A DNA stretch of 22,633 nt from assembly GCA_001443495.1 (NCBI GenBank), contig LDXR01000010.1:89220-111852 (forward strand), in the 5' to 3' direction. A program made the position numbers and the translations under genes. Below the pieces are notes generated by a model. The model was not told the origin of the DNA. It saw only the letters and a program-made list of their open reading frames with translations, and made no database searches. Positions 2,615 through 21,745 of this stretch are shown piece by piece. This stretch comes from a candidate division NC10 bacterium CSP1-5 (GTDB taxonomy: Bacteria; Methylomirabilota; Methylomirabilia; Methylomirabilales; CSP1-5). The number at the start of each line of letters is the position of its first letter. Within the stretch, counting starts at the first letter, position 1.

Positions 2615-2631
2615 AAGGCATGAAATTTGCA
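2615..2631 (+). promoter_or_regulatory. Sigma-54 (-24/-12) promoter candidate upstream of the bactofilins
   Basis: AAGGCATGAAATTTGCA has GG at 2617-2618 and GC at 2629-2630 with exactly 10 bases between, as required for RpoN promoters. GGCA and TTTGCA match the two consensus blocks. The predicted start is near 2642, giving a leader of about 126 bases to the ATG at 2768. A related but incomplete copy, GGCATGAAATTGTACC, occurs about 70 bases upstream. Confidence 0.5.
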
Positions 2632-2767
2632 ACCCCAATCAACGCTTTTCCGGGGATCATCAGTTTCGTCTTCGGTGTGCTTGCCCGCGACAGATGGAGA
2701 TCGACGGCATACGGGTGTTCCGTACAAAAGGGTTCCCATTGGACCCGCCGAGAAGGAGGAGAACACA

Positions 2768-3226
2768 ATGTTGAGACGTACCAATTCCCCTGCCCCGAAA
2801 CAGGATCCTTCCGAGCTCCAGGGCAACGGTAACCAGTCGTCCTTGTCCGCTCTCCTGACCGTCATGGGCGGTGACGCGAGACTCGAGGGAAAGTTCGACA
2901 TCACCGACTCGATCGAGATCGAGTGCAAGGTCGGCGGCGAGTTGAAAGTGGGCGGGAAACTCGTCATCGGCGAGCGAGGCTCCGTGCATGCCGACGTGCG
3001 GACCGTGGACGCCATCATTCACGGCGAGTACGAGGGAAACATGGTGGCGACGGGGAGCGTAGAAATCTCTCCCAGCGGACGGGTGGACGGCAACATCGAG
3101 ACCAATTCCCTCGTGATCTCCAAGGGTGGCTTCTTCAACGGCAACGTCGTCAAGCTCAAGGAGACCGAGGAGGGTAAGCCTGCAATCCACCTGGTGAAGG
3201 AGAAAGCGCTCGCCCAGGCCAAGTAG
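2768..3226 (+). CDS. Bactofilin (polymer-forming cytoskeletal protein) 1
   Basis: The gene encodes 152 residues and starts at ATG 2768 behind an excellent GAAGGAGGAG ribosome site. The first 30 or so residues are polar and disordered (RTNSPAPKQDPSELQ). Residues about 35-135 are the bactofilin right-handed beta-helix, seen as short repeating strands (ARLEGKFDITDSIEIE, GELKVGGKLVIGERG, SVEISPSGRVDGNIE). A charged tail ends with EKALAQAK. Bactofilins polymerise without nucleotide into filaments on the inner membrane and recruit cell-wall enzymes. It is followed 24 bases later by a second bactofilin and then an M23 peptidase, the usual partner class, which suggests a cell-shape or local wall-remodelling function. 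A sigma-54-like promoter lies upstream. Confidence 0.92.
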   Translation: MLRRTNSPAPKQDPSELQGNGNQSSLSALLTVMGGDARLEGKFDITDSIEIECKVGGELKVGGKLVIGERGSVHADVRTVDAIIHGEYEGNMVATGSVEISPSGRVDGNIETNSLVISKGGFFNGNVVKLKETEEGKPAIHLVKEKALAQAK

Positions 3227-3250
3227 CGAGCGCTCCTCGGGGGGTTTACC

Positions 3251-3691
3251 ATGTGGTGGAACTCCACCAATAAGCCGTCGGCGAAGAACACAGGCATCAT
3301 GGCCTTCATTGATGAAGGCTCCGAGATCGAGGGGAAGTACAGCTTTACCGGCACCGGCACCGTCCTCCTGAACGGCAGGTTCCATGGTGAGATCGTGACC
3401 ACGGACGCCCTCGTCGTGGGGGAGAAGGCTATGGTCAACGCCACGATCCAGGCGGAATCGGTGGTGATCATGGGTGAGGTGGTGGGCAACGTCCGCGCCA
3501 GCTCGCGGATACAGCTCAAGGGGGCTGCCCGTGTCTTCGGGAACCTCGAGGCCCCTGTGGTGATCCTCGAGGAGGGTGTCCTGTTCGAAGGGCAGTGCCG
3601 GATGCCCGGGGCAAGGCCCGATGAGCCGGTTCACAGTCCCGGTGCAGTGGAAGCGATCCTGACCCGCCATCCGCAGTCTGACCATGATTAA
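3251..3691 (+). CDS. Bactofilin 2
   Basis: This is a second 146-residue bactofilin, paralogous to its neighbour but clearly diverged. The core at residues about 17-120 has the beta-helix pattern (IDEGSEIEGKYSFTGTGT, NGRFHGEIVTTDALVVGE, VVGNVRASSRIQLKGAAR). The short N-terminus (MWWNSTNKPSAKNTG) and the C-terminal tail (GARPDEPVHSPGAVEAI) are polar. Start ATG 3251 is preceded by a G-run (GGGGGG) rather than a canonical site, so it may depend on translation of the upstream gene 24 bases away. The stop at 3691 overlaps the ribosome site of the M23 peptidase. Tandem bactofilins often co-assemble or serve different sites. Confidence 0.92.
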   Translation: MWWNSTNKPSAKNTGIMAFIDEGSEIEGKYSFTGTGTVLLNGRFHGEIVTTDALVVGEKAMVNATIQAESVVIMGEVVGNVRASSRIQLKGAARVFGNLEAPVVILEEGVLFEGQCRMPGARPDEPVHSPGAVEAILTRHPQSDHD

Positions 3692-3699
3692 GGAGGCGA

Positions 3700-4638
3700 A
3701 TGCCCCGCAACGGCTATACCCTCGTACTCCTCACCGGCAACACCCCCCGCGGTCGGCAGTTTCACCTGACCGATCTCGGGTTCCGGGGTGCTCTCCTCGG
3801 CGGGCTCCTCACCGTCCTGGCCCTGGGCTACCTCGGCTATCACTTCCTCGTCTTCCAGGTCGACTATAGTGAGCTGGCCCACCTGCGCGAGACGGTCCAG
3901 AGCCAGGAGGAAATGGCGGCCCAGCTCCAGACCCTCGCCCAGGAGTTAAACCGCCTCCGGTCCTTCGACACCCAGATCCGCCGCCTCGCCGGCATGGAGG
4001 CGGGCCCGACCCCCCAGGGGGCGCCCCCCCGCGCGGTGGGGGGCGGGACCCTCGAGCTCGCCAAGGCCCTCAAAGAAGGAGAGCAGGCGAGCCAGACCCA
4101 GCTCCTCGCCCGGCTCTACCAGGATCTCGAGCGGCTGGAGCGGGAGATGGCGCTCCGGGCCGAGAGCCTGCAGGCGGTGACCGAGTACCTCACGAAACAG
4201 AAAGACCGCCTCGCCGCCACCCCGGCGCTGTGGCCCACCGAGGGCTACGTCGCCTCCCGCTTCGGCCCCCGGACGTCCCCCTTCACCGGCCAGCCCCAGC
4301 AGCACACCGGCATCGATATCGCCGCCCCCTCCGGCACCCCCATCCGCGCCCCGGCCGATGGGGTGGTGACCTTCGCCGGCACCCTCCCGGGCTACGGCCA
4401 CGCCGTCGTGCTCACCCACGGCTTCGGCTTCAAGACCTTCTATGGCCACAACCAGCGGAACCAGGTCAGCAAGGGCCAGACGGTCAAGCGCGGCCAGGTC
4501 ATCGCCCTCGTCGGCAACACCGGCTACAGCACCGGCGCCCACCTCCACTATGAAGTCCTCCTCAACGACCAGCCCCACGACCCCCTGAAGTACATCGTCG
4601 ATGAGGGGCAGCGGGCGCAGGCGCTGCGGGGAAGATAG
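3700..4638 (+). CDS. Membrane-anchored M23 family metallopeptidase (LmdC-like)
   Basis: The 312-residue protein has a short cytoplasmic start, one transmembrane segment (about residues 28-50, GALLGGLLTVLALGYLGYHF), and a long coiled coil (about 55-165, many LRETVQSQEEMAAQLQ-type heptads). The C-terminal LytM/M23 domain spans about 180-300. The zinc motif is complete: HTGIDIA near residue 202 (His and Asp) and HLHYEV near 281, with the YGHN histidine near 248. M23 enzymes cut peptidoglycan cross-bridges in the periplasm. With two bactofilins immediately upstream (8-base gap, AAGGAGG ribosome site inside the previous gene's end), the best reading is a bactofilin-guided wall hydrolase, as described for BacA/LmdC and the CcmA/Csd systems. 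The lack of change at the zinc ligands argues for an active enzyme. Confidence 0.93.
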   Translation: MPRNGYTLVLLTGNTPRGRQFHLTDLGFRGALLGGLLTVLALGYLGYHFLVFQVDYSELAHLRETVQSQEEMAAQLQTLAQELNRLRSFDTQIRRLAGMEAGPTPQGAPPRAVGGGTLELAKALKEGEQASQTQLLARLYQDLERLEREMALRAESLQAVTEYLTKQKDRLAATPALWPTEGYVASRFGPRTSPFTGQPQQHTGIDIAAPSGTPIRAPADGVVTFAGTLPGYGHAVVLTHGFGFKTFYGHNQRNQVSKGQTVKRGQVIALVGNTGYSTGAHLHYEVLLNDQPHDPLKYIVDEGQRAQALRGR

Positions 4639-8751: not shown

Positions 8752-9804
8752 CTAGCGGATGCGGTAGGTAATGGTGCGCTGTTCGCGGCCCCGCCTGATC
8801 AGCACATTGACCTCTGAGACGCCGGCATCGGAGGAAAGTTGGCGGTAGAGCCTTACGAGGCTCCCGGCGGAATTGACCGGCTGGTCGTTCACGGAGAGGA
8901 TCCGGTCGCCCACCTCGAGGCCAGTCCGGCGCGCGAGCTTCACGTAATCAATCCGAAATCCCTCGCTGTCAAGCGTTCCGGTCCCGAGCGGGTTGTTGAG
9001 CCGAAGCCCCACGCCGTCGCCGAAGGTCACGACGGGCGTCGCCGAGAGCAAGGTTTCCGAGAGCAACGGCCAGATTTCACTGCCGAGCTCCCTCGCGTTC
9101 CGCTCGGGAATCTCCCACGTGTCCGGGCCGACTTCGGCGAACGGGATGCGGTTGACCGTATCGGCCGCCGTCCCGGGCTCTCCAACGGTAATGCTTCCAC
9201 CGGCGGCACGCGGTCCGTTCAGGTCGCGTGGTGATCCAGGCACCGCGATGATGCTGGCTTTCGGCAGGTTTTCACCGGGAGCCGCACGCCGCTCGAGGAT
9301 CGCTTGGCGTCCCCGGACATCCACCACGGAGTAGTTCTTGTTCGAAGCCCCGGCTCTCCCGAAGCGAAGCTGGAACCGGAGCGTGTCGAGCCAGGCACTC
9401 CGGATAAAGACGAGCGTGCGCGGGGCGGGAAGTCTCGTGCCCTCCGGGATCTCAACGGTTTGACCACCCGCCAGGACGATTCGCAGCGTGTGATCGTCGA
9501 CCACCACGATTTTGCCGATGGGGACGGGGCTGTCGTCGTCGAAGACGGCCTCGCCATCTCTGTAGAGGCCCAGATGGCCGGTCGCCGGGTCATGTATCAG
9601 GGCAAAGCGCGCCGGTTGCGGCAGTCGGACGTCTCCGACCACCTCGACGCGACCTTCCGGCTGCGACTTCTGGGCCTGCCCGGCTTCAAGGAGGTCCGCC
9701 AAGGCCAAGAGGAATGCAAGGCAGCACCAGACGGCAAGCGCTGGCGTCATCACCCTGCGGTGCCGTGGGACCTGCTCTCCGGCCGCGGGGATTCCGTGAC
9801 TCAT
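8752..9804 (-). CDS. gspC: GspC-like inner-membrane protein with HR and PDZ domains
   Basis: I choose ATG 9804 because it overlaps the stop of the SBBP gene as ATGA, giving 350 residues; longer starts would run into that gene. A transmembrane segment lies near residues 19-39 ([19 protein letters not shown]). Residues about 48-115 look like the homology region of GspC/PilP ([37 protein letters not shown]). A poorly conserved middle part of about 160 residues follows. The C-terminal 70 residues are a PDZ domain ([34 protein letters not shown]) very like that of GspC. In type II secretion GspC links the inner-membrane platform to the secretin and takes part in substrate choice. Coupling to the cargo-like SBBP gene fits that role. 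The middle insertion is unusual. Confidence 0.7.
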
Positions 9805-12206
9805 GGTCGAACCCGCAATCGCGTGGCGGCCCGGAAGGCCAGCCTGGTTCCGAGACCGAGGCAGGTTACCGGAATAGCCAGCCCGAGAATGGGGGACCAC
9901 ATGAACAGGGACACCCATCCGATGACCGGGATCAACCCGGCCCGGACGATGGCGCGGAGAGCTTCCGACTCTGCTATGAACGTGGCGACCGGCGGGCTGA
10001 TCCGATAGTAGGTAGAGACGAACAGCCGGCCCGGGGCACTGGTCATCAGGTATCGATCCCGGAACTCACGCAGGAGTTGGACCTGTGGGGCCAGGGGCGA
10101 GCCGAAGGCGGCTGTGGCGATAAAGCAAAATCCGCTACTCCCCCCACCTCCTCCGCCTCCGGCACCCGCCGCCGGACTTTCCATGAGCTTGGCAATGAAC
10201 GCATCAATGACGTCGTTGAACGTGGTATCGAACGCCCCCGCGGTCGTAGGAAACGGTGTTGGTACACCCGCAGGACCGGTCTCTCCCGTTACGTATGCGT
10301 TATCGAGGGGATCCACGGCGATGCCATTGCCGATGTCTGTCTCGCTACCTCCGAGATAAGTCGAGTAGACAAGGCCCGTACCAGTGGCATTAAGCTTCGT
10401 CACGAACGCATCTTGGAGACCGGCCCGAGCAGCCTGGAAGGGACTTCCAGCCGTCGGAAAGTTGTCCGACCGGGTGTCGCCCGTAATATACGCATTGCCA
10501 ACTCCGTCGATGGCAATCCCGCGACCAACGTCCTCAAAAGCACCACCCAGGAACGTGGAGTATTCGAGCATGGTGCCGACAGCGTTGAGCCTCGTCACGA
10601 AGGCATCTTGGACCCCGTTGAACGTCGTGTCGAACGACCCCGCGGTGGTGGGGAACAGGATCAAGCCCCCATTATCGGTCACCCCCGTCACGTAGGCCCT
10701 GTTTGCCGCGTCCACCGCAATGGCATTCCCTCGGTCCGTCCCGCCGCTGCCCAGGAACGTGGAGTACTCGAGCGCGTTCCCGGCAGCGTTGAGCCTCGTC
10801 ACGAAGGCATCTTGGACCCCGTTGAACGTCGTGTCCAAGGATCCAGGGATGGTGGGGAACGGAGTCAAACCTGCATTATCGGTCACCCCGGTTACATACG
10901 CTCTGAGAGCAGCATCGACCGCGATGCCAAAGCCTTCGTCGGTGCCCGTACCTCCGAGAAACGTGGAATACAGGAGCGAGGCGGCCCCGGCCAGAGTCGG
11001 ATCGAACTTCGATACGAAGGCGTCGCGAGCGCCGCCGAAGGAGGTGTCGAAGGCCCCTCCGGTCGTGGGGAACGCCGTGGCGCCTCCCGACTCGGTCCTC
11101 CCGGTGATGTAGGCGTTGTTGGCGGAGTCTACGGCGATGGCGTTGCCCTGGTCGTCAAGACTCCCTCCAAGGTAGGTCGAATACAAGAGCATGGACCCCG
11201 CAGCATTGAGCTTCGTGACGAAGGCATCCATGAGGCCGTTGTGGGTTGTGTCGAAGGCCCCCGCCGTCGTCGGGAACGGGTTGGCTACGGGTGAATCGGT
11301 TACCCCCGTGACATAGGCCTCATTGACACCATTCACGGCGATGCCGAGGCCCCGGTCGGTCCCGCCGCCACCGAGGAACGTGGAGTACAGGAGTGCGTTC
11401 CCTGCCGTGTTTATCTTAGTAACGAAGGCGTCCTGTACGCCGCTGAAGCCGGCGCCCACCGTCGTAGGAAACGGTGCGACACCCACATTATCGGTCTCCC
11501 CTGTCACGTAGGCGTTCCCCGTGGCGTCCACAGCAATGGCGTTGCCCCTGTCGGTCCCGGTGCTGCCGAGGAAGGTGGAGTACACCAGAACGGGGTCGAT
11601 GATCAGCGGGCGGGTGCGATCATAGGCAGCCACGTGAACGCCGATCCGATTCTTATCTCGGAGAACGTAATGGCCGGTGACGGCCTGCCTTGCCCCGTTG
11701 ATTTCCTGATAGATGACGGGGGTGCGTTGGATGAGGTGGCCGCCCGCGGTGTGCAGGATGAGATTTCCCTCGTTGTCAATCTCAAGCCTGTCCACTCCCT
11801 CGAATACTAACGTGATCGTGTCGGGGTCTGCACCCGGGGCGATCACAAAGTCGTATTCCAGCTGCCGGGGATTCCCGTAAAAAACGAGGTCGATGCCGGG
11901 ATAGGCCTGGCGGTACCGCACCTTGCCGTAATGCGGGATGTTTGTCCGCCATTTCTTGGGGTCGCTGCCGATGAAATAGTTGCTCTTCCCCGGTAGCTCA
12001 TCGACTCCTACGAGCTTTGCGTGTGCGTTGACTCCAACGACCTTCATCCTCACCACAGCCCGTCGCATTGCCGTTGGGGGCTCAGTCCTCAGGCCTGAGC
12101 CCTCAGTCTTCAAAGAGAGGACCGCCTCGGTGGGTGTCAGGAACAGCGTGTATCCAGAACCGCGGGCCAGGAATCTCACCTGCTCGTCGGTCTGGCCCTG
12201 GTTCAC
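9801..12206 (-). CDS. SBBP (beta-propeller) repeat protein with CFI-box C-terminal tail; body of a frameshifted gene
   Basis: This 801-residue body begins with a DUF7948-like domain ([20 protein letters not shown], then [18 protein letters not shown]). Seven SBBP repeats of about 65-70 residues follow, each with a [30 protein letters not shown] pattern. After a glycine-rich hinge comes the CFI-box tail: [21 protein letters not shown], then two hydrophobic helices and a basic end. Such proteins are large and exported. The first in-frame start seen is GTG 12206, with no ribosome site, yet homologous sequence ([11 protein letters not shown]) continues in frame up to 12269 where a stop occurs. 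The signal peptide lies in another frame at 12230-12430, so a one-base change has probably split the gene. The stop overlaps gspC by 4 bases. It is a likely secreted or surface cargo of the neighbouring machine. Confidence 0.9.
12081..12108. repeat. Heptamer repeats inside the SBBP coding sequence
   Basis: Four consecutive heptamers (CTCAGTC, CTCAGGC, CTGAGCC, CTCAGTC) lie inside the N-terminal domain, where they encode a variable loop ([12 protein letters not shown]) in the minus direction. The units resemble those of the intergenic array at 12503-12551. Since 7 is not a multiple of 3, each change of unit number would shift the frame. Confidence 0.65.
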
Positions 12207-12229
12207 CTCGAAACTCAGGGGGAGCTTGC

Positions 12230-12430
12230 CTAGGCCTCGCTGATTCGGGTTCTGCTCGCCGTATCCGGCTTAACGGAGGCCGGTGGTGAAGTACCCACAG
12301 AATGGGAAGCACCCAATGGGTCTGGGAGAGGCAGGGGAGCGGCTATGGCGTCCGAAGCCAGGCCAAAGATGATTCCGGAGACGATTGCCCCGGAGAGAGA
12401 AATGCGCCGACATCTCCTGGTATGATTCAT
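12230..12430 (-). pseudogene. Signal-peptide N-terminus of the SBBP gene, separated by a frameshift
   Basis: The 66-residue reading frame starts at ATG 12430 with a strong GGAGG site 8 bases upstream. It encodes a basic start and hydrophobic core ending in an Ala-x-Ala type site (SGAIVSGIIFGLASDAIAA), then a proline-rich stretch, and stops at 12230. It overlaps the open frame of the SBBP body, which extends up to 12269. The body lacks its own signal peptide and ribosome site, so this is best read as its true N-terminus. Joining the frames needs a -1 shift in 12230-12269. No slippery heptamer is visible there, so a point deletion or sequencing error is more likely than programmed frameshifting. 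Confidence 0.75.
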
Positions 12431-12502
12431 GCCCGCGGCCTCCAGGTCTGCGAGTTTGCCAAGGCATTTCCCCTTCCGTCATTCGCGCCCCCCGTGCCCT
12501 AA

Positions 12503-12551
12503 CCTCCGTCCTCAGGCCTCAGTCCGCATACCTGAGACCCAGTCACCAGTC
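12503..12551. repeat. Degenerate heptamer array after the third pseudopilin gene
   Basis: Seven consecutive 7-base units can be read on the plus strand (CCTCCGT, CCTCAGG, CCTCAGT, CCGCATA, CCTGAGA, CCCAGTC, ACCAGTC). The last units run into the 3' end of the pseudopilin gene, including its stop. The 112-base spacer 12431-12542 otherwise holds only the ribosome site of the SBBP gene. Confidence 0.65.
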
Positions 12552-13001
12552 GCGATAGCGATTCCCCTTCCCTGCGATGTTCATGAAGCCCTCGGCCTCA
12601 CTCCGGCTGTGGAGGTCTGTGATTCCGGCTATCGCGCCGGTCTTGTCCACGATGAAGTCCAACTTCCAGTCGGTCTGGCCGGTCATCGGGTCACGGTAGA
12701 TTCGGCGGAGGTAGCGCCGGACTTGAAGCTGCGTCTTGTCCTCCAGCAGGTCTTCCAGCTTGGCCGGGTAGCGACCGTGGTCCTGTCGATATAGAGCGAT
12801 GGCCCTGCGGTACTCCCCGAGACGGAAGAGCAGTTCGGCTTCCTTGTCACGACGGACCATCGTGCTCCACATCGGGGTCAATGCAGTCGTGGCAATCCCG
12901 ATCAGGGTGATGGCCAACAGCAGACCGACATAGGTCATCCCCTCTTGATTCGACGACCGACGGCAGATGGCCGATGACACGGTTCCTCGTTCATGGTTCA
13001 T
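12543..13001 (-). CDS. GspG-like pseudopilin 3, atypical N-terminus
   Basis: From ATG 13001 the gene encodes 152 residues. A 20-residue leader ends in SNQEG and is followed by the pilin-type hydrophobic helix MTYVGLLLAITLIGIATTAL. The processing glycine is present, but +1 is Met and the usual Glu at +5 is Gly, as in some minor pseudopilins. The C-terminal domain keeps the GspG pattern, with YPAKLEDLLEDKTQ, YLRRIYRDPMTGQTDWKLDF and a final RYRDW. Pseudopilins assemble into the short periplasmic pseudopilus that pushes cargo. The start codon lies in a heptamer repeat (12982-13002), no ribosome site is seen, and a TTG at 13013 is an alternative. It is the last of three tandem GspG-type genes. 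Confidence 0.75.
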   Translation of the reverse strand: MNHERGTVSSAICRRSSNQEGMTYVGLLLAITLIGIATTALTPMWSTMVRRDKEAELLFRLGEYRRAIALYRQDHGRYPAKLEDLLEDKTQLQVRRYLRRIYRDPMTGQTDWKLDFIVDKTGAIAGITDLHSRSEAEGFMNIAGKGNRYRDW

Positions 13002-13075
13002 CGTCGAACTCAACGTCCCAAGCCCCGCACTTTAAACTCTCGACTCTCAACTCTCAACCCTGAACCCCGAACCAA
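12982..13075. repeat. Two heptamer arrays between pseudopilins 2 and 3
   Basis: Plus-strand units at 12982-13002 are GTTCCTC, GTTCATG, GTTCATC; the last contains the complement of the start codon of pseudopilin 3. Units at 13034-13075 are AAACTCT, CGACTCT, CAACTCT, CAACCCT, GAACCCC, GAACCAA, filling nearly the whole spacer to the stop of pseudopilin 2. The orientation of the GAACC-like core is reversed between the two arrays. Confidence 0.75.
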
Positions 13076-13077
13076 GC

Positions 13078-13455
13078 CTACCAGGTGTTGTACAGGGTGC
13101 CGTCCATGGCGGCCTGGTCACTGCCGCTCTTGACATCAAAGATCCCCGCCTCCACCCCATGCTCGTCCGTATCAGCCACCAGCAGCCACGTGTTCTCTAA
13201 CCCGGTGATCGGATCTTTTGGGACCTTGCGGAGGTACCGCTTTTCCACCAGCACCTCGAGCGCCGGAGGGTACGTTCCATGGTCCGCGTAGTGCTGGTCA
13301 ATTACGTCCCGTAGGATAAACAGGTTCTCCCGTAGCGCGGCCTCTCGCGCCCGCTGTACCGATGTGGTAAAGCTCGGAGTGGCCAGCGTGACGAGGATTC
13401 CGATGACCACGAGCACGATCATGATTTCGACAAACGTAAATCCCCGTTGGTTCAT
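13078..13455 (-). CDS. GspG-like pseudopilin 2
   Basis: From ATG 13455 the product is 125 residues: MNQRG leader, then FTFVEIMIVLVVIGILVTLA with Gly -1, Phe +1 and Glu +5, a textbook prepilin site for the GspO/PilD peptidase. The globular part has TYPPALEVLVEKRYL, RKVPKDPITG and ends with DGTLYNTW, as in major pseudopilin GspG, whose C-terminal loop binds calcium. ATG 13476 would add 7 residues (MNHEPST). Both start codons lie in a heptamer array and neither has a clear ribosome site. An even longer reading to 13626 is only open because of repeat sequence and overlaps pseudopilin 1. Confidence 0.83.
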   Translation of the reverse strand: MNQRGFTFVEIMIVLVVIGILVTLATPSFTTSVQRAREAALRENLFILRDVIDQHYADHGTYPPALEVLVEKRYLRKVPKDPITGLENTWLLVADTDEHGVEAGIFDVKSGSDQAAMDGTLYNTW

Positions 13456-13559
13456 GGTTGAGGGTTCATGGTTCATAGAGGGACACAGCGCGCTTGCAGG
13501 TGGGCTTCTTCGCAGCCCCTTTATCCCTGAACCCTGAACTCTGAACCCTGAACCGTGAA
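13449..13559. repeat. Heptamer arrays between pseudopilins 1 and 2
   Basis: At 13449-13476 the plus strand reads GGTTCAT, GGTTGAG, GGTTCAT, GGTTCAT. On the coding strand these are ATGAACC units that provide two candidate start codons for pseudopilin 2. At 13525-13559 it reads CCCTGAA, CCCTGAA, CTCTGAA, CCCTGAA, CCGTGAA. The remaining spacer up to 13564 shows no other feature. Confidence 0.8.
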
Positions 13560-13564
13560 CTGTC

Positions 13565-14047
13565 TTACCAGGTCTCATACCGGCTCCCATCCATGGCGGT
13601 CGCGGTGCTCGCCGAGCGGACGTCATAAATGTCCCGCCGATCGGTGAGGGTGGTATCCAGGCTATCCGAATACGAGCGGATGACCCACCGACCTTCGGTG
13701 CTCATCGGATCCTTGGGGATGCGGCGAAGGGTCTTGGTCTCAACCAGCTCCTCGAGCGTCAGGGGATAGCCGGACCGATCGCTGCTCACGCGTGCCTTGA
13801 AGATCTCCCTGGCGTCCCTGGCATTCTGTCTCGCCTTGTCGTAGTCCACCTTGAACCGGTCGATCCCCTCCCGGATCTCGCGCAGGCCGCGCCGAAGCTC
13901 GATCTCCCTGGTGCGCTTGACCGTCACCTCGACGAGGGGCATGGCCACCGAGGCCAGTACGCCGAGGACCGTCAGAGTGATCAGAAGCTCCACCAGGGTG
14001 AAGCCGCGTGTGTCGAAACTGCCTTCGTGTCTCAGGCCAATGCCCAT
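13565..14047 (-). CDS. gspG: GspG-like pseudopilin 1
   Basis: The 160-residue protein has a 15-residue leader (MGIGLRHEGSFDTRG) cut before FTLVELLITLTVLGVLASVA (Phe +1, Glu +5). The rest is GspG-like: VKRTREIELRRGLREIREG helix, YPLTLEELVETKTLRRIPKD, WVIRSYSD, and an end of AMDGSRYETW that strongly resembles pseudopilin 2. It lies 12 bases downstream of the secretin gene. It is probably the major pseudopilin, since it best fits the family. The unusual insertion (KARQNARDAREIFKARVSSD) lies before the conserved YP motif. Confidence 0.88.
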   Translation of the reverse strand: MGIGLRHEGSFDTRGFTLVELLITLTVLGVLASVAMPLVEVTVKRTREIELRRGLREIREGIDRFKVDYDKARQNARDAREIFKARVSSDRSGYPLTLEELVETKTLRRIPKDPMSTEGRWVIRSYSDSLDTTLTDRRDIYDVRSASTATAMDGSRYETW

Positions 14048-14059
14048 TTCTCGATGCCG

Positions 14060-15973
14060 CTACGGCTGGCCCATTCCGGGGCGAGCCGGAGGAGTGGGTG
14101 GCGGCGACGGCGGGGCGGGCGCCGAGACGGGGGCCAGCGGCCCGCCCTCGAAGCTCTGCCCGGTCCCGGCCCAGAAGGTGGCCACTCCGGGTTTAGGCGG
14201 CTCGACCTTCTTGACGATGCGAGGCGTGAGAGAGATGATGACGTCCCGCCGGACCTTCTCTTGACGCTCATCTCGGAACAGCCGCCCGATGATGGGCAGG
14301 TCGCCGAGAAACGGGGAGTACCTGGTCGTCTTGCGCGACTCATCCTGGATGAGTCCTCCCAGGAGCCGGGTCTCGGCATCCCTCACCTTGATGAAGGTGT
14401 TCAGGCTCCGCGTGTTGACGCTGGGGAGGAGGTCGCCCCCGACCAGTTCGCCGATGCTCGAGATTTCGAAGTTAAGCTCGATCGTGACGTCGTTGTCCAG
14501 GTGGATGATGGGGGAGAAGGCGAGCTTCAGGCCGATATCCCGGTACTCCGTCCGGGTCTCGGTCGTCGTGATAGCTGTCGCTCCCCCGGCAGTCGTGCCG
14601 GGCTGCGGGATGACCCCCGGGGCCGTGGTGAGTTGGGAGATCTGGAACGGCCGGCGCTCTCCGATCAAGATGCTGGCCTTTTGCCGATCGAGGACCCGGA
14701 GCGTGGGATTGGCCAATAGCTTGGCCTCGGTATCCGTCTTGATCAGATTCAAAAAGATCACCGGGTTGGTGAAGAGCAGGTCAGAAAATGCGCGGGCCCC
14801 GGCGAGCGCCTCAGCCGTAACGAAGCCGGCAATAGCCGGGGCGCCAGCGGGGACGGTAAAGAAGGCAGCCTGGTACTGGTCGGTGAAGAAGATGCCCAGG
14901 TCCCTGAGCTTGGTCCGGTCCACCTCGAGGATCTCAAGGTCGATCTCCACCTCACCCCCACCCCGGTCGTTCAGGTGCATCAGCCGTTCGGCCAGTGCGA
15001 TCTTGTCGGGGGTATCCCGGATGACGACGGCGTTCAGCTTCTCATAGACGAAGATCTGGCGGCTGTTCAGGATGGTGCGAAAGAGGTTGACGGCGACCTT
15101 GGCGTCCGCGTTGCTCAGGTAAAAGGTCCGGACCTGGAGGTCGTCGTACTGCTGGTGCTTGGCCGGGGTATCCGGGATGACGATGAGGGAGTTGTCACTC
15201 ACCTGCTTGGCGAACAGGCGGTTGGTGCTGAGCATGAGGGCAAAGGCCTGGCGGAGCGGGAGATCCTTGACGTAGCTCGTGACCCGCTGCGCGCGCACCC
15301 CCTCATCGAGCAGGATGTTTATGTCGGCGAGCTTCGAGATGATCTCGAGGACCTCCTTGATATCCGTCTCCTTGAAGCGGAGGGTGACCGGCTTGGTCGA
15401 AAGCAGGCTCATCGCTCGCTCGGTCGCGGCCAGCTCGCTGGCCCGGGTCACCGTCTCCGCGGCCGCCTGTAACTGGGTGGTCACCTCCTGGTGGACCTGC
15501 TGGATCTCGGGGTTTTCGGGATCGAGGTTCTTGGCCTCTCCCAGTAGTTGTGCGGCTTCTCGTAGCTCCTCCTTCTCCAAAAGCTGCTTCCCCTTTGCGA
15601 GCAGCTCCTTGGCCTTCCGCTTGGCTGCGACCCGCTCTATCCCCTGCTGGGCGCGGGTCTCTTCGGTGTTGTAGTTGAGCGCCTGCCGGTACTCCACCAG
15701 GGCCGCGTCGGGCCGCCCCGCCTCCTCAAATTCGGCTCCCCGCTCGGCGTGCTGCACCGCCGCAGCCCGCAGCGCCTGGATCAGCTTGATGCGGGCTTCG
15801 ACGGACCGTGGCTCCTCGCTCAGTCGCTCCATGTAAAACTTGACCGCCTGGTCGTAACTCCCCGCCTGCATGAGCTCCTCACCGCTGGAAAGCGGGGGGG
15901 TGGTGACACACGCGGCAAGGGGGAGGAACATCCCCGGTATCAGGACGTAGAGTGCTGTTCGGAGTCTCATCAT
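14060..15973 (-). CDS. gspD: Secretin lipoprotein with N-terminal TPR region (GspD/PilQ/MshL type)
   Basis: The 637-residue protein starts with a lipoprotein signal peptide (lipobox PLAAC, Cys22). Residues about 30-170 are TPR-like helices (SYDQAVKFYMERLSEEPRS, REAAQLLGEAKNLDPENPE). Periplasmic N0 (VTLRFKETDIKEVLEIISK) and N1 domains follow. The C-terminal secretin barrel shows the LLANPTLRVLDRQKASILIG segment and the SPFLGDLPIIGRLFRDE motif. A proline-rich tail ends the protein. It forms the outer-membrane gate. The start overlaps the end of the pilP-like gene (ATGA). A self-contained lipid anchor may make a separate pilotin unnecessary. TPR-fused secretins are known from non-classical type II and Msh-like systems. 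Confidence 0.92.
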   Translation of the reverse strand: MMRLRTALYVLIPGMFLPLAACVTTPPLSSGEELMQAGSYDQAVKFYMERLSEEPRSVEARIKLIQALRAAAVQHAERGAEFEEAGRPDAALVEYRQALNYNTEETRAQQGIERVAAKRKAKELLAKGKQLLEKEELREAAQLLGEAKNLDPENPEIQQVHQEVTTQLQAAAETVTRASELAATERAMSLLSTKPVTLRFKETDIKEVLEIISKLADINILLDEGVRAQRVTSYVKDLPLRQAFALMLSTNRLFAKQVSDNSLIVIPDTPAKHQQYDDLQVRTFYLSNADAKVAVNLFRTILNSRQIFVYEKLNAVVIRDTPDKIALAERLMHLNDRGGGEVEIDLEILEVDRTKLRDLGIFFTDQYQAAFFTVPAGAPAIAGFVTAEALAGARAFSDLLFTNPVIFLNLIKTDTEAKLLANPTLRVLDRQKASILIGERRPFQISQLTTAPGVIPQPGTTAGGATAITTTETRTEYRDIGLKLAFSPIIHLDNDVTIELNFEISSIGELVGGDLLPSVNTRSLNTFIKVRDAETRLLGGLIQDESRKTTRYSPFLGDLPIIGRLFRDERQEKVRRDVIISLTPRIVKKVEPPKPGVATFWAGTGQSFEGGPLAPVSAPAPPSPPPTPPARPGMGQP

Positions 15974-16587
15974 GGCTGGTTCCCTCGCTGTGTTGTCGTG
16001 CTTGGCGGGGCGACGTCCGGCCCTGTCAATCCGAGCCGGATCTCCTTCTTTCCGTCAAGGGAGGTGACAAGGATGCCATCTTCCTTGACCTCCTTGACCC
16101 GTAGCTTGCTTCCGATGACCTCTGTCTCCGGGACGACCAGGAGCTCGCTGCCGTAGGTCACAAAGGCCATCATCTTGCCCTCCGCTGTGGCGAACCCGAG
16201 GAACCGGACCCGCTTCGCTTCCTCAAGAAAGAGGTCGGGAGGGGGAGGGGGTGCGGGGAGTGCAGCAAGTGCAGAGGGTGCAGCAAGTGCAGAGGGCAAG
16301 GGGGGAGAGGCTTCGGACGATGCGAAGATGTTGCGAGCCTCGGGTTCGTAGGGGGGTCTCACCCGCTCGACCCGCGCCAGCTTCAATCGAGGTATCTCCA
16401 TGCGGTCCTTCGTTTGCCTGCGAGGGGCCACCACGGGCCCCTCTCTCTGGGTCGAGGCGGCCGGGAGCGCGGCCGCTCCCTGGATTGGCCGGTCGGTCTC
16501 GCCCCGGTGCCGCTGCACGAGGATGAGGGCGATCCAGAAAGCCACAAGACAGAACAACACGATGAGTTTTCTCTTATCCGTCGGCAC
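15970..16587 (-). CDS. pilP: PilP/GspC-like inner-membrane lipid-side linker protein
   Basis: I place the start at GTG 16587, which has AAAGGAG seven bases upstream, giving 205 residues. A transmembrane helix spans residues about 7-23 (LIVLFCLVAFWIALILV). A basic/proline region with EARNIFASSEASPPLPS follows. The C-terminal 70 residues form a PilP/GspC homology-region fold (VRFLGFATAEGKMMAFVTYG, KLRVKEVKEDGILVTSLDGK). PilP-type proteins bind the N0/N1 domains of the secretin. The gene overlaps the secretin start by 4 bases. An 18-bp tandem repeat encodes LPSALAAPSALAAL. The reading frame stays open upstream to a TTG at 16800 through a diverged copy of its own 5' end, so a 276-residue form is possible. 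Confidence 0.72.
   Translation of the reverse strand: MPTDKRKLIVLFCLVAFWIALILVQRHRGETDRPIQGAAALPAASTQREGPVVAPRRQTKDRMEIPRLKLARVERVRPPYEPEARNIFASSEASPPLPSALAAPSALAALPAPPPPPDLFLEEAKRVRFLGFATAEGKMMAFVTYGSELLVVPETEVIGSKLRVKEVKEDGILVTSLDGKKEIRLGLTGPDVAPPSTTTQRGNQP
16260..16295. repeat. Nonamer/18-bp tandem repeat in the pilP-like gene
   Basis: GTGCAGCAAGTGCAGAGG occurs twice in tandem (16260-16277 and 16278-16295), that is four 9-base GTGCAG-NNN units. The period keeps the reading frame and encodes a small Ala/Pro/Leu/Ser linker. Confidence 0.85.
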
Positions 16588-16800
16588 GGCTCTTCTCCTT
16601 TGGGCGGTCTTCGCCTGCTGACTTATCGGTGGCTGGTTTGCAGAACGTACAGAAGGTGCAGGAGGCCCTTCGACAGGCTCAGGGCGAGGTGCAGCAGGTG
16701 CAGAAAGTACAGAGCCCCGCCTCTTCTCCCGTCTGCGGAGGGCGATACACAGTGCCCCGAGGCACACGAGGATGATGAGCCCTTTGCTATCTCTCGACAA
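16588..16800 (-). other. Diverged duplicate of the pilP 5' end with repeats
   Basis: The 71 codons from TTG 16800 to the pilP-like GTG are open in the same frame. The beginning (SKGLIILVCLGALCIALRRR) matches the true transmembrane start (DKRKLIVLFCLVAFWIALIL), and the DNA shares runs such as CTCATC and ATCGCCCTC at corresponding places. The rest is repeat sequence. It is either a remnant of a tandem duplication or a real N-terminal extension with a second membrane segment. A good ribosome site before the inner GTG favours the former. Confidence 0.55.
16638..16715. repeat. Nonamer repeats interrupted by a REP-like palindrome
   Basis: Units TTGCAGAAC, GTACAGAAG, GTGCAGGAG run from 16638 to 16664, and GTGCAGCAG, GTGCAGAAA, GTACAGAGC from 16689 to 16715. 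Between them lies CCCTTCGACAGGCTCAGGG (16666-16684) with complementary ends. On the minus strand this reads RPEPVEG, a peptide known as the translation of a widespread interspersed palindromic repeat in environmental bacterial genomes. Confidence 0.7.
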
Positions 16801-17362
16801 GGGGCCTGTTCTCCTTCACGCGTTCTTCCTCTATTTCTCTGCTGATGCGCTGCTCGGTCAAGAAGTACGCTGCCATCTCGAGTCGCAGATTGAGTCGATC
16901 GACCCCGCGGTGACTGGTGAGGGCGACTCTCTCGATCATCAGGGGGTCTTGGAGCCCCTCGACCTCGTACAAGAATCGGCGGATGGCGCCATAGCGCCCC
17001 TCCACCTCCATCTGGACGCTGAGCTTGACTAGCTCTTCCTCTGAAACCTCTCCGGGCTGGTACTTGACCGACGGCACATGGAGCTGAAGGCGTCGGGCCT
17101 GATCGGTGACCCGCCGGATCATGGCGGGGATGGCCCCCTGGGGTGGGATCCGGCTGCGGAACTGTTCCATTCCCTTAACCAGGGAGGCCAGAAGCTCTTG
17201 CTCACGCTGCTCCCGGCGAAGGGATCCCATGCGGGTGTGGAGATCCTGGAGAGCGGCGGCATGGACGCGCAGCGCCTGGCGGGCGGGGACGATGGCCAGG
17301 CCGAAAAAGGCCAGGTTCAGCGCCAGCAAGGCGCCGGCGAGATAGAGCAATCGAGGTTTCAT
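16787..17362 (-). CDS. pilO: PilO-like inner-membrane platform protein
   Basis: The 191-residue protein has one N-terminal transmembrane helix (residues about 5-26, LLYLAGALLALNLAFFGLAI). A short coiled coil (LQDLHTRMGSLRREQREQEL) leads to a periplasmic ferredoxin-like domain (IPPQGAIPAMIRRVTDQARR, SVQMEVEGRYGAIRRFLYEV) as in PilO/GspM. It pairs with PilN and supports the secretin link via PilP. Its start ATG overlaps the pilN stop by 4 bases. Confidence 0.86.
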   Translation of the reverse strand: MKPRLLYLAGALLALNLAFFGLAIVPARQALRVHAAALQDLHTRMGSLRREQREQELLASLVKGMEQFRSRIPPQGAIPAMIRRVTDQARRLQLHVPSVKYQPGEVSEEELVKLSVQMEVEGRYGAIRRFLYEVEGLQDPLMIERVALTSHRGVDRLNLRLEMAAYFLTEQRISREIEEERVKENRPLVER

Positions 17363-17916
17363 ACCGCATCCCCTCGATACCGCAGCGAGATGGTGAATCG
17401 CAGGCTTGTGCTCCCCTTCTCCTCCGCGTGATTGAGCAGGAACACCTGGTGAAACGCCTCCTGTCCCTTGAGGCCCTCGATGCAGCGCAAGAGGTCCTCC
17501 ATGCTTTTGGCATTTCCCAAGAAGGTCACCGCCCCTCCTCCGAGGTCCGGACGGATCTCCGTCAGCGTGACGTTCGGCGGGATGGCGCGTTCGAGTTCGA
17601 AGAGGAGGCGGGTGAAAGAATAGTTTGCCCCTTGAATGATCCGGTTGTACAGGGCAATCCGCGAACCGAAGTGCTCGAGCTCCTTGGGGGAGGGGCGATG
17701 GGGCAGGCTGGCTAGATTACGTTCCCTCTCCTGAACCAACTCCTGTTGCTGTCGAAGCTGCTCTTCCGAGGAGCGGAGGTCAGCCTGGGATAAGCTGTAG
17801 AGGAGGGCGTTGCCCACGCCGAGGAGCAGATTGAGACAGAGCCCTCCCACGGCCAGTAAATGCAAACGGCGTCGTCTGCGGATCGCGGGAGAGGCCAGGT
17901 TCAGCGTCACATCCAT
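17359..17916 (-). CDS. pilN: PilN-like inner-membrane platform protein
   Basis: The 185-residue protein has a cytoplasmic start MDVTLNLASPAIRRRRR, in the position of the PilM-binding INLLP peptide of PilN. A transmembrane helix (about 18-41) and a coiled coil (SEEQLRQQQELVQERERNL) lead to a periplasmic ferredoxin-like domain with FELERAIPPNVTLTEIRPD and FLGNAKSMEDLLRCIEGLKG. It overlaps pilM by 10 bases and pilO by 4 bases. Together these proteins connect the cytoplasmic ATPase to the periplasm. Confidence 0.87.
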   Translation of the reverse strand: MDVTLNLASPAIRRRRRLHLLAVGGLCLNLLLGVGNALLYSLSQADLRSSEEQLRQQQELVQERERNLASLPHRPSPKELEHFGSRIALYNRIIQGANYSFTRLLFELERAIPPNVTLTEIRPDLGGGAVTFLGNAKSMEDLLRCIEGLKGQEAFHQVFLLNHAEEKGSTSLRFTISLRYRGDAV

Positions 17917-18818
17917 CGTAGTCTCCAGGGCTTGCGAAGCAAGGCCGCCCCCGCGGAGCCCAGGAGTTCCCCGCGGAGCCCATTCCGGTGTTCAGGCATC
18001 GTGTGGACCGGAAGCTCACAGGCCCCTCGCAAGGACTCCGCCAGGGTGTCTTCTCCCTCTCCCATCAGCACGAGGCCCTCAGGCTGTCCTGCTCCGATCT
18101 CGTCCCGGAGATACCGGATGGTCGTATGAATCTCCCGAAGCACCCTCTCCACCCTGTGCTCTTGGTCCGCCAGAGCATCGTGTCCATCCCACGGCAACAG
18201 CCGCCACAGCCGTGGGATCTGCTCATCGGCGTAGATGAACAAGAGGCTGGACGGCCCGGGGGCCAGCACGAGGCGCTTGCCACCGAGGCCGGCAGTCTTC
18301 TGCAACCGGTACAGGGCGACGCCTCGTGTGATGATCCGGACTGGCTCGAGGCCCGCACCCACGACCAGGGCTTCGTACTGGGCGATCACCGCCTCACGGG
18401 CCAAGAGATACAAGAGGCGGGTTCCGCTCCCCTGTCCGGGTAAGGGCTGGTAGTCGATGCGGGACTCCTGGATGGGGAAGGGAATGCGGTCCTTGAGGCG
18501 CCAGCAGAGAAGCTGGCGAGTGTCTGACGGGGTTCCGCTGAGCGCCTCGAAATCCTGCCATCCGATGCGACAGCTGGTGTCGGGTAGGGCCACCACGACC
18601 GGCCCGCCCTTGCATCCGGCCCTTTTCATCAGGCTTCGCAGCTCACCGCTGAGTGTCCGCCCCTCGGCCACATTCAGTTCGGTGAAGGCAGGGGTGATGA
18701 GCGCTGAAGGCAGGGGGAGCGACATGCCCTGTGTGACCTCGAGCCCTCGGGACGTGAGCCGGGCCCGGCACAGGCCGATCCGTCCTTTGTCGATTTCCAG
18801 CCCCCAGGCACCTGTCAT
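17907..18818 (-). CDS. pilM: PilM/GspL-like actin-fold platform protein
   Basis: The 303-residue protein has no transmembrane segment. It starts with the actin-like strand GAWGLEIDKGRIGLCRAR. Features expected of PilM or cytoplasmic GspL include VVVALPDTSCRIGWQDFEAL, WRLKDRIPFPIQESRIDYQP (the IPF segment is typical), a central ARE AVIAQYEALVVGAGLEPVR region and a final LLGSAGAALLR. It is shorter than typical PilM (about 350), and the C-terminal ATP-site segments are weak, so nucleotide binding is uncertain. It lies 4 bases downstream of gspE and overlaps pilN. Confidence 0.82.
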   Translation of the reverse strand: MTGAWGLEIDKGRIGLCRARLTSRGLEVTQGMSLPLPSALITPAFTELNVAEGRTLSGELRSLMKRAGCKGGPVVVALPDTSCRIGWQDFEALSGTPSDTRQLLCWRLKDRIPFPIQESRIDYQPLPGQGSGTRLLYLLAREAVIAQYEALVVGAGLEPVRIITRGVALYRLQKTAGLGGKRLVLAPGPSSLLFIYADEQIPRLWRLLPWDGHDALADQEHRVERVLREIHTTIRYLRDEIGAGQPEGLVLMGEGEDTLAESLRGACELPVHTMPEHRNGLRGELLGSAGAALLRKPWRLRWM

Positions 18819-18822
18819 GATC

Positions 18823-20520
18823 CTACATCTCCGCGAAGGTCATCCGATTGATCTCCTGCAGGGTCGTGACTCCGGCATAGACCTTGTTCAGGGCCGCCTG
18901 GCGCAAAGGGGTCGTACCCTCCTCGCGGGCGATGGCCCGGATCTCTGCAGCCGGTCTCCGGTCCAGGATCGCCTGTCGGATGCGATCGGTGACCTCGACC
19001 AGCTCAAAGATCCCGGTCCGACCCCGATAGCCGGTGTGGACGCACTCGGGGCACCCCTTTCCCTCGAAGAAGGGGACGGGTGGCGGTTCGGCAAGTCCCG
19101 AGTCCTCCAGCAGCGCGGGGGACGGGGTCGTCTGGATCTTGCAATGCAGGCAGATCAGGCGGACGAGACGCTGGGTCAAGATACAGTTGAGCGCCGAGAC
19201 AAAATTGTACGGCTCGAGCCCCATGTGGATCAGGCGGCCGACGACATCGATGATGTTATTGGCGTGCACCGTGGTAAATACCAGGTGACCGGTCAGGGCC
19301 GCCTGGACCGCGATCTGAGCCGTCTCAGGGTCTCGGATCTCTCCGACCATGATCTTGTCGGGATCGTGGCGAAGGATCGACCGGAGGCCCCGCGCGAACG
19401 TGAGCCCCTTCTTTTCATTCACCGGGATCTGCACCACATTCTGGAGCTGGTACTCGATGGGATCCTCGATGGTGATGATCTTGTCCTCCCCCCGATTGAT
19501 CTCGCAGATGGCGGCATACAACGTTGTCGTCTTGCCGCTCCCGGTGGGGCCGGTGACCAGGATCATCCCGTGGGGCCGGTGGATCGTGTGCCGGAATCGC
19601 TTCATGTCGGCTTCGGGGAACCCGAGCCGCTCGAGCTTGAGCTCACTGAGTTCGGCGGTGATGGCTTCCTTATCCAGGATCCGGATGACCACGGCCTCGC
19701 CGAAGTCACTCGGCATGACCGACACCCGAAAGTCGATCGTCCTCCGGTTGAGGCGAAGTGTGAATCGGCCGTCCTGGGGAACCCGGCGCTCGGCGATGTT
19801 CAGCTCGGCCATGATCTTGATCCGCGAGACGATCGCCTCCTGGTAGCGCCGGTCCAGCGGCTCCATCGCCGCATAGAGTGTTCCGTCAATCCGGTACTTG
19901 ACGAGCAGATGGCGCTCGGCCCCCTCCAGATGGATGTCGCTCGCCCGCCGGTCGAGGGCGTGTAGCACGATGCTATCCACCAGCTTGATGATGGGGCTTT
20001 GATCCTCCTTGACCCGCTCCAGCGTCAACGGTGCCTGTTCATCCTCTGCCACCAGCGACAGCTGGAGGTCCTGGCTCAGCTCCTGAAGGACCTGCTCCGC
20101 GGTTTCCACCCCGTGAATCTTGGCCCGGATCTGGGTGCGTGAGGCGACCACCATCTCGGACTCGCCGAGGCAGAGTCGCAGTTCATCGAGGGCGGGAAGA
20201 TCACTCGGGTCGGCCAGGGCGACGGCAAGCTGGCCGTCGCTCCGGCGGAAGGGAAAGAACGCTCCGCTCTTGAGCAGGGCTGGGGGAAGCCGTTTCACGA
20301 GGTCCATCTCCGCCCCGACGGAGGTCAGGTCAATGTACGAGAGCCCGTACTGTCTGGCCCGAGCCTGGGCCAGTTCCTCTTCGGTGACATGGGCCGCCTC
20401 CAGCAGGTACGCCGCGAGGCTCGACCCCTCGAACCCCCGACCCTCCGCCTGGGTGACGAGTTCGGGGCTTAGCCACCCCCCTTCGATCAGGACCTCTGTG
20501 AGGCGCTTGATTCCTGCCAC
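18823..20520 (-). CDS. gspE: GspE/PilB-type secretion/assembly ATPase
   Basis: The 565-residue cytoplasmic ATPase powers pseudopilus or pilus assembly. The N-terminal 130 residues are a GspE-N/MshEN domain with two half-motifs (RLTEVLIEGGWLSPELVTQA and LAAYLLEAAHVTEEELAQAR). The catalytic core has Walker A GPTGSGKTTT (about residues 321-330), the Asp/Walker B box IMVGEIRDPETAQIA (about 383-397) and the His box HLVFTTVHANNIIDVVGRLI. Four cysteines form two C-x2-C pairs (CLHC near 457, CPEC near 490) for zinc. Extension ATPases have these; retraction PilT does not. Start GTG 20520 has a GGGG site. The MshEN-like region could bind cyclic di-GMP. Confidence 0.95.
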   Translation of the reverse strand: MAGIKRLTEVLIEGGWLSPELVTQAEGRGFEGSSLAAYLLEAAHVTEEELAQARARQYGLSYIDLTSVGAEMDLVKRLPPALLKSGAFFPFRRSDGQLAVALADPSDLPALDELRLCLGESEMVVASRTQIRAKIHGVETAEQVLQELSQDLQLSLVAEDEQAPLTLERVKEDQSPIIKLVDSIVLHALDRRASDIHLEGAERHLLVKYRIDGTLYAAMEPLDRRYQEAIVSRIKIMAELNIAERRVPQDGRFTLRLNRRTIDFRVSVMPSDFGEAVVIRILDKEAITAELSELKLERLGFPEADMKRFRHTIHRPHGMILVTGPTGSGKTTTLYAAICEINRGEDKIITIEDPIEYQLQNVVQIPVNEKKGLTFARGLRSILRHDPDKIMVGEIRDPETAQIAVQAALTGHLVFTTVHANNIIDVVGRLIHMGLEPYNFVSALNCILTQRLVRLICLHCKIQTTPSPALLEDSGLAEPPPVPFFEGKGCPECVHTGYRGRTGIFELVEVTDRIRQAILDRRPAAEIRAIAREEGTTPLRQAALNKVYAGVTTLQEINRMTFAEM

Positions 20521-20530
20521 GTCGTTTCCC

Positions 20531-21745
20531 CTATCGGACGACTGATGCGAGATGAAAGATCGGGAGGTACATAGTAATCACGATTGCCGCGACGAAAAGA
20601 CCCATGGTAACCATGACGACCGGCCCGAGGGCGGTGGCCAGCGCGGACAGATGGTATTCGAGCTCTTCTTCGAGGAAGTCCGCCACGTGGTGCAGCATCT
20701 CCTCCAGCCCTCCGGTCCGCTCGCCGACACTCACCATCTCCAGGACCAGGGGCGGAGCTGCCTTGACCCCCTCCAACGCCGCCGCAATCGAGGCCCCCCC
20801 TGTCACCGCGGGAATGGCCCGGTGAAGCGCCGCTCGAGCGGCCTGGTTATGCACAGACCCCGCGGCGACCTCGAGCGCCGGCACTATCGGCATTCCCCCG
20901 GCGGAGACCGTCCCAAGGGTTCGGCAGAAGGTCGCGAGGGAGAACCGCTGGATGATGGATCCAAGCAGGGGGAGGCGCAACAGGAGCCGGTCGAGGCTGA
21001 GTCGGCCACTTCTTGTCCGGCGCCACTGCCATAGGCCGAGCAGGCCGAGGAGAGGGAGTGGGAGGATGATCAGGAGGTATTCGCGGATCAGGCCCGTGAA
21101 GGACAGGAGAAGCCGGGTCGCGTACGGAAGTTGTGCCTCGAAGTCCAGGTAGATCTGCGAGAAGGACGGGACGACCACGGTGAGCAGGAAGATCACGACC
21201 GCGATGGTCAGCACGAGGAGCATCGCTGGGTACAGCAGGGCCGACCCGAGCTTCTTTTGCAGGACAATGACCCGCTTGAGATGGGCAATGTATCGCGCCA
21301 GCACCTCCGGCAGCTCCCCGCTCTTTTCGCCGACCCTGAGCGATGCCACATAGAGGGGGGAGAAGACGTCCAGGTGCTGCTCTGCTGCATCGGACAGTGA
21401 AGCGCCTCCCTTCACGGCCTCTCGGAGCTTTTCCAGGATCTGCCGGAGACGGGGATGGGTTTGCCGTGCCACGACGAGATCGAGCACAGATAGGATCGGC
21501 AGGCCCGCCTTGATCAAGGCGAGCAATTCCTGGTTGAGGATCAGGAGATCTTTCTTTCGGACTCGCCGCCAGGCAGACGGGAGAGAGAAGCGGAAGAGGG
21601 ATCGAGAGGTGCGGGGAAGGACGTGGAAGACGTAGTAGCCTTCGGTCTCGAGCTGGCGTCGCAGCCGGTCCGGGTTCTCGGCCTGCCGGTCCTGGACCAG
21701 GATCTTGCCCCCGGCTGTGGCGATGCGGCACGCAAACGTTGCCAC
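20531..21745 (-). CDS. gspF: GspF/PilC-type inner-membrane platform protein
   Basis: The 404-residue protein has the short N-terminal region (ILVQDRQAENPDRLRRQLE) and two copies of the GspF helical domain (LLILNQELLALIKAGLPILS; FCRTLGTVSAGGMPIVPALE). Hydrophobic segments lie near residues 167-195 (LYPAMLLVLTIAVVIFLLTV), 215-240 and 370-395 (VVMVTMGLFVAAIVITMYLP). It anchors the ATPase and moves pilin subunits out of the membrane. The start is GTG 21745 with GGAGGGG 5 bases upstream. It is the first gene of the long minus-strand operon, after a 290-base leader containing a terminator. The gspE gene begins 10 bases after its stop. Confidence 0.95.
   Translation of the reverse strand: MATFACRIATAGGKILVQDRQAENPDRLRRQLETEGYYVFHVLPRTSRSLFRFSLPSAWRRVRKKDLLILNQELLALIKAGLPILSVLDLVVARQTHPRLRQILEKLREAVKGGASLSDAAEQHLDVFSPLYVASLRVGEKSGELPEVLARYIAHLKRVIVLQKKLGSALLYPAMLLVLTIAVVIFLLTVVVPSFSQIYLDFEAQLPYATRLLLSFTGLIREYLLIILPLPLLGLLGLWQWRRTRSGRLSLDRLLLRLPLLGSIIQRFSLATFCRTLGTVSAGGMPIVPALEVAAGSVHNQAARAALHRAIPAVTGGASIAAALEGVKAAPPLVLEMVSVGERTGGLEEMLHHVADFLEEELEYHLSALATALGPVVMVTMGLFVAAIVITMYLPIFHLASVVR

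Follow-up and report, generated by a model that had tools for sequence, protein, structure and literature searches.

Substrates of the type II secretion system (T2SS) are said to have no linear universal secretion signal, and of the known T2SS substrates VesB alone depends fully on the PDZ domain of EpsC (PMC12369372). Among machines of this kind, the 'Pul' atypical T2SS of Geobacter and Pelobacter (PulG, OxpG, TklG) is described as having up to three pseudopilins and as secreting the multicopper protein OmpB (PMC3543383, citing Mehta et al. 2006). The operon described here resembles it, by published description only, in being a T2SS with three pseudopilins, and the portion of that description at hand mentions no CFI/PDZ cassette such as the one reported below (PMC3543383); likened in this way, the Geobacter system may be a close relative of our machine.

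The operon lies in a stretch of 22,633 nucleotides from the candidate division NC10 bacterium CSP1-5 (Methylomirabilota), here called the window, and runs on the minus strand in the order gspF-gspE-pilM-pilN-pilO-pilP-TPR-secretin-three pseudopilins, followed by an SBBP/CFI protein and a GspC-like protein. Our reading, to which we give a probability of about one half, is that this is a minimal, atypical T2SS whose operon took up a cargo cassette, the CFI tail of which tethers the exported passenger at the T2SS. The gene order and overlaps that had been predicted are confirmed by the positions of the open reading frames and by family scans, as follows.

20531..21745, minus strand: gspF/pilC-like inner-membrane platform protein (TIGR02120, 1e-90)
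18823..20520, minus strand: gspE/pilB-like assembly ATPase with a GTG start (TIGR02533, 4e-165; TIGR02538, 6e-163; both below cut-off)
17907..18818, minus strand: pilM, the cytoplasmic part of GspL (TIGR01175, 3e-6; position kept in 12 relatives)
17359..17916, minus strand: pilN, the periplasmic part of GspL (PF05137, 1e-7)
16787..17362, minus strand: pilO/GspM-like (PF04350, 6e-8; NF040576, 4e-8)
15970..16590, start uncertain, minus strand: pilP/GspC-HR-like, with TM and HR and without PDZ (orthologue profile against PilP 2IVW, E 8e-6)
14060..15973, minus strand: secretin with N-terminal TPR (PF00263, 3e-36; TPR_14, 4e-7; orthologues in 13 genomes)
13565..14047, minus strand: pseudopilin 1, GspG-like (TIGR02532, 1e-7; TIGR01710, 2e-7)
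13078..13476, minus strand: pseudopilin 2, GspG-like (TIGR01710, 3e-13)
12543..13001, minus strand: pseudopilin 3 (TIGR01710, 0.003; homologous to pseudopilins 1 and 2)
12230..12430, minus strand: ORF encoding the signal peptide of the SBBP protein, in a different frame from the remainder (translation; in frame in G009, G010 and G013)
9801..12206, minus strand: DUF7948 and SBBP beta-propeller protein with a C-terminal CFI-box, N-terminus frame-broken (family scans)
9921..10127, minus strand: CFI_box_CTERM domain (NF041770, 2.6e-30)
9804..9965, minus strand: CFI tail, hydrophobic helices and basic C-terminus (AF2 model)
9801..9804, minus strand: ATGA stop/start overlap, translational coupling (overlap shared by L094 and L023)
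8752..9804, minus strand: GspC-like protein with TM, HR-like domain and PDZ (fold and profile matches)

A Pfam scan of the pilP-like protein gave no match. The gene has no clean ATG and its open frame extends to 16815; between 16590 and 16815 (minus strand) the upstream part of the pilP frame repeats the pilP N-terminus in degenerate form (DSKGLIILVCLGALCIAL compared with DKRKLIVLFCLVAFWIAL), which suggests a partial tandem duplication. At 15900-15973 (minus strand) the secretin starts with a lipobox-like LAAC and TPR repeats, which gives it the look of a secretin with a built-in pilotin. At position +5 pseudopilin 3 (12543-13001, minus strand) does not have the customary Glu (GMTYVG), in which it is like tip pseudopilins such as GspK.

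GspL has its counterpart in PilM and PilN together, GspM in PilO, and the HR domain of GspC in PilP. Since PilM/N/O/P are homologous to these components, the mixture of Pil and Gsp names does not make the machine a hybrid, as had been proposed for it, and an atypical T2SS with three pseudopilins is described in Geobacter (PMC3543383). With the canonical T2SS (GspC-GspO) of E. coli K-12, Nitrospirota and deltaproteobacteria the locus shares a homologous secretin, GspE, GspF, GspG-like pseudopilins, GspL/M equivalents, an HR domain and a PDZ domain, but its GspL is split, its GspC is PilP-like and has the HR domain only, GspH-K are not recognisable in the operon, and its PDZ protein accompanies the cargo. 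At the family level the locus brings together a secretin, GspE, GspF and pseudopilins; the best scores against the curated equivalog profiles for GspD, GspE, GspF and GspG lie below their cut-offs (163.6/351, 550/630, 305/424 and 50/89 respectively), so that we term the machine T2SS-like or atypical and not canonical. In a GspE tree the window clade is monophyletic (100/100), and the tree assigns it to neither T2SS nor T4P. The core machine resembles a minimal, atypical T2SS with a split GspL, and its parts would be GspF, GspE, PilM and PilN as the split GspL, PilO as GspM, PilP as an HR-only GspC, the secretin and the three pseudopilins. A retraction ATPase had been reported as absent, which is true of the window, where the PilT that accompanies a type IVa pilus system is not found, but not of the genome, which elsewhere encodes PilT-like ATPases, including a PilB/PilT pair, as well as an MSH-like locus and further T2SSE-family ATPases.

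Secretin orthologues (E < 1e-150) are found in 13 genomes of the order with the gene order kept; this conservation, together with the proximity statistics given below, places the operon beyond chance. The slot after pseudopilin 3 holds either the SBBP protein or an unrelated one, the CFI-box being kept, as in G017 where a non-SBBP CFI protein occupies it. In G001, G002 and G006 the contig continues past pseudopilin 3 without an SBBP/CFI gene, and these genomes have no CFI-box anywhere. The contigs of G009, G010 and G013 break off within the SBBP gene and are therefore uninformative about absence; G009, a Candidatus Methylomirabilis MAG of the same genus as the window genome, encodes several CFI proteins. 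The original prediction of a pilus/secretion hybrid that serves a single SBBP substrate drew on operon adjacency and on the ATGA coupling of cargo and GspC-like genes, but with at least three related operons lacking the CFI cargo, multiple CFI proteins in G009, a different passenger at the slot in G017 and PilMNOP homologous to GspL/M/C, a dedicated machine is not upheld and we regard such a hybrid as very improbable. The SBBP protein was also considered as the conserved element and was ruled out, as passengers swap.

The SBBP protein matches DUF7948 (2e-68) and SBBP repeats (3e-42) in the family scan, and its C-terminus is a member of CFI_box_CTERM by the curated profile NF041770 (104-109 bits against a cut-off of 40, E 2.6e-30, residues 694-762 of 801). 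NF041770 is a named family to which the scan output gives no functional assignment, and a search of the PMC literature found no paper naming the CFI-box. The AF2 model of the tail has five helices (pLDDT 94), among them the two hydrophobic C-terminal helices that had been foreseen, at 55-77 and 79-106 (pLDDT 94); a fold search of the tail against the PDB returned no match and a search of its profile against PDB sequences nothing convincing. The SBBP reading frame opens at 12269, with neither a start of its own nor a signal peptide before the GTG at 12206, and since the signal peptide (MNHTRRC...AIAAPLP) sits in another frame, in the ORF at 12230-12430, the exported protein is frame-broken in this assembly. 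In G009, G010 and G013 the signal peptide and the SBBP part form one continuous frame. The frameshift at 12200-12270 (minus strand), which relatives lack, is either an assembly error or a real lesion. Of the large exported SBBP protein that had been predicted, the SBBP and CFI domains are thus found, but the signal peptide is out of frame in this assembly.

The stop of the SBBP gene overlaps the start of the GspC-like gene (ATGA, 9801-9804), as originally noted. The two genes overlap in the same way in L023 and L094 and are separated by a short gap in L100 and L108, so that the split was ruled out as an assembly artefact. In G004, G008, G009, G039 and G042 the CFI tail continues into the PDZ protein as a fusion; of these genomes, G039 and G042 lack the window-type operon and have a GspD over the cut-off. 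Among 95 Methylomirabilota genomes the CFI-box exceeds its cut-off in 11 and the PDZ protein is present in 10, with both in 9 (Fisher p 5e-10, a value that ignores shared ancestry). The expected GspC-like HR and PDZ protein is recovered at the level of architecture, the AF2 model having a TM, a beta domain and a PDZ domain with corresponding fold matches. In fold comparison its PDZ part aligns with those of EpsC and PulC, and its C-terminal 107 columns (the PDZ region) match the curated GspC profile with E 1.7e-14. For residues 45-105 the fold match is to chain Pa of the T4aP machine 3jc8 (Z 5.7, rmsd 1.8), which from the chain name we take to be PilP; profile-profile homology to pilP was rejected as too weak (prob 1.6), and the HR assignment comes from the fold match only. 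As modelled, the protein appears to have the TM, HR and PDZ architecture of GspC; it scores 29 bits, through the PDZ part only, against a cut-off of 150 for curated GspC (NF041515), which is why we name it GspC-like and not GspC. As GspC homologue the machine proper has the PilP-like HR protein; the PDZ protein goes along with the cargo.

CFI loci numbered 66 in a scan of GTDB species genomes, and the statistical tie between the CFI-box and T2SS genes and GspC-type proteins that had been anticipated is borne out by co-occurrence, proximity counts and fusions in three phyla. In 195 Nitrospirota genomes, 8 of the 79 CFI genes have a gspD within 12 kb where 0.8 are expected (p 2e-6), or 7 with the centre genome left out (p 2e-5), and GspD exceeds its cut-off in 35/39 genomes with a CFI gene as against 53/156 others. 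The CFI gene there stands in the order gspC-D-E-F-CFI-G and onwards (L099, L115, L128, L193), between gspD and gspE (L147) or ahead of gspL (L187, L188, L191, L192). In 197 genomes sampled independently from the phylum of one deltaproteobacterial MAG, 7 of 92 CFI genes are found within 12 kb of gspD against 0.6 expected (p 3e-6), with a modest difference in GspD over the cut-off (38/49 CFI genomes, 90/148 others; p 0.02). In this sample a gspC recognised at the curated level follows directly downstream of the CFI gene in G363 (within about 6 nt) and in G417, the CFI gene precedes gspG in G358, G388, G412 and G321, and in G445 an SBBP-CFI protein like that of the window adjoins gspC-gspD. The proximity p-values treat genes as independent and ignore shared ancestry; the linkages span three phyla and several operon slots; chance adjacency was ruled out by the proximity tests in two phyla. 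In L215 (G105:C12, 951-9487) a pilM-to-secretin operon is followed by a 1021-residue CFI protein with HYDIN/VesB-like Ig domains, and on a Methylophaga plasmid (L223, 7803-16201) a small CFI-box protein lies about 5 kb upstream of GspE/GspF/pilin genes.

Three genomes, G112 (L128), G412 (L228) and G321 (L229), encode a passenger, a CFI-box and a full GspG in one open reading frame, with both domains over their curated cut-offs and the prepilin cleavage motif kept after the CFI tail. Many of the genomes are fragmented MAGs, in which faulty assembly could account for an in-frame fusion seen in one MAG only; those to GspG come from three different genomes. GspC and the prepilin GspG both start in the cytoplasm, and with the tail joined in these fusions to GspC-like proteins or to GspG, its end would be cytoplasmic and the passenger outside. 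The tail looks like a C-terminal membrane-anchoring domain, and the anchoring half of the proposal that it is a sorting or anchoring signal recognised by GspC gains support. We infer a C-terminal inner-membrane CFI domain that would bring varied exoproteins to the T2SS. The cassette would consist of the SBBP beta-propeller exoprotein with its CFI-box and an HR-PDZ adaptor of GspC type that would be co-produced with it, through the ATGA coupling in the window and as a single polypeptide in relatives. The CFI tail may hold the exported passenger on the inner membrane, with the N-terminus outside and the C-terminus in the cytoplasm, a tether that would concentrate the passenger at the T2SS; the PDZ or HR part could then hand it to the secretin and pseudopilus, after which it would be freed by a protease or remain displayed.

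A cargo destined for release would not be expected to stay fused to a GspC-like protein unless cleavage freed it, and the CFI protein may instead be a permanent T2SS accessory, such as a periplasmic adaptor, scaffold or sensor anchored by GspC and GspG. The GspC-like fusions have no evident release site, and the GspG fusions and the positions among structural genes fit this account, which we nonetheless hold to be unlikely: unrelated exoprotein types swap at one slot, including subtilases with pro-domains, genomes encode several CFI proteins at a distance from T2SS genes, and many T2SS operons (L194-L204) have no CFI gene. At the gspF/gspG slot, for instance, the passenger is a subtilase with a pro-domain and fn3 (L128, L193) or a DUF6055 protein (L099, L115). 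The passengers of 65 CFI proteins include fn3 domains, subtilases, M6 peptidases, beta-propellers, lipases and FG-GAP repeats; the N-terminus is hydrophobic in 59/69 full-length CFI proteins, and the CFI-box is C-terminal.

Most CFI genes do not adjoin T2SS genes. The archaea G119 and G120 have a CFI-box and no secretin among the matches listed; 12 of 26 CFI genomes have no GspD over the cut-off, some of these genomes being incomplete, and there are bacteria with only PilQ-like secretins among the matches listed. On a Burkholderia anthina plasmid (L221, 1153-1734) a short CFI-box without a membrane helix sits on a cold-shock-domain protein, so that the domain has a form that looks non-secreted and cytosolic. 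Such archaeal and cytosolic-looking carriers, and the many unlinked genes, would suit a CFI-box that serves generally as a membrane or structural domain at the C-terminus and plays no part in T2SS targeting, its linkage reflecting co-regulation of exoproteins with their machine. We find this doubtful, as co-regulation by itself would not be expected to yield recurrent fusions at the same end to two different T2SS components, nor the retention of the CFI-box while passengers swap.

If the tether at the T2SS is instead the correct reading, the CFI-box would act like the GlyGly-CTERM or MYXO-CTERM tags without belonging to either; an NCBIfam scan of the window tail for their motifs or profiles gave only CFI_box_CTERM. 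To our knowledge the CFI-box has no sortase partner. It shares with the MYXO-CTERM/myxosortase system a C-terminal position, membrane anchoring, an invariant Cys, a basic end and a predicted T2SS link (PMC11980579), but is a 69-residue helical domain ahead of the membrane helix. GlyGly-CTERM, with rhombosortase, is likewise a C-terminal signal on T2SS substrates (PMC6219818, PMC12369372), although the motifs differ. VesB provides a parallel in needing the GspC PDZ as one particular substrate, but its PDZ-dependent information lies in an Ig fold and not in a C-terminal tag (PMC12369372). Possibly, and we advance this tentatively, the CFI-box is a portable C-terminal T2SS delivery domain that tethers any exported carrier in the inner membrane beside GspC and GspG and passes it on to the secretin, with covalent fusion of cargo to GspC or GspG in some lineages giving one cargo per machine subunit. 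If so, it would be a concrete, portable signal for the T2SS, linked or fused to T2SS components in three phyla, and would explain how part of the exoproteome is chosen and why the GspC PDZ may serve only some substrates.

Elsewhere in the window, two adjoining bactofilin-like genes (2627-3691, plus strand) are followed by an M23-type peptidase gene (3700-4638), all named by eye only.
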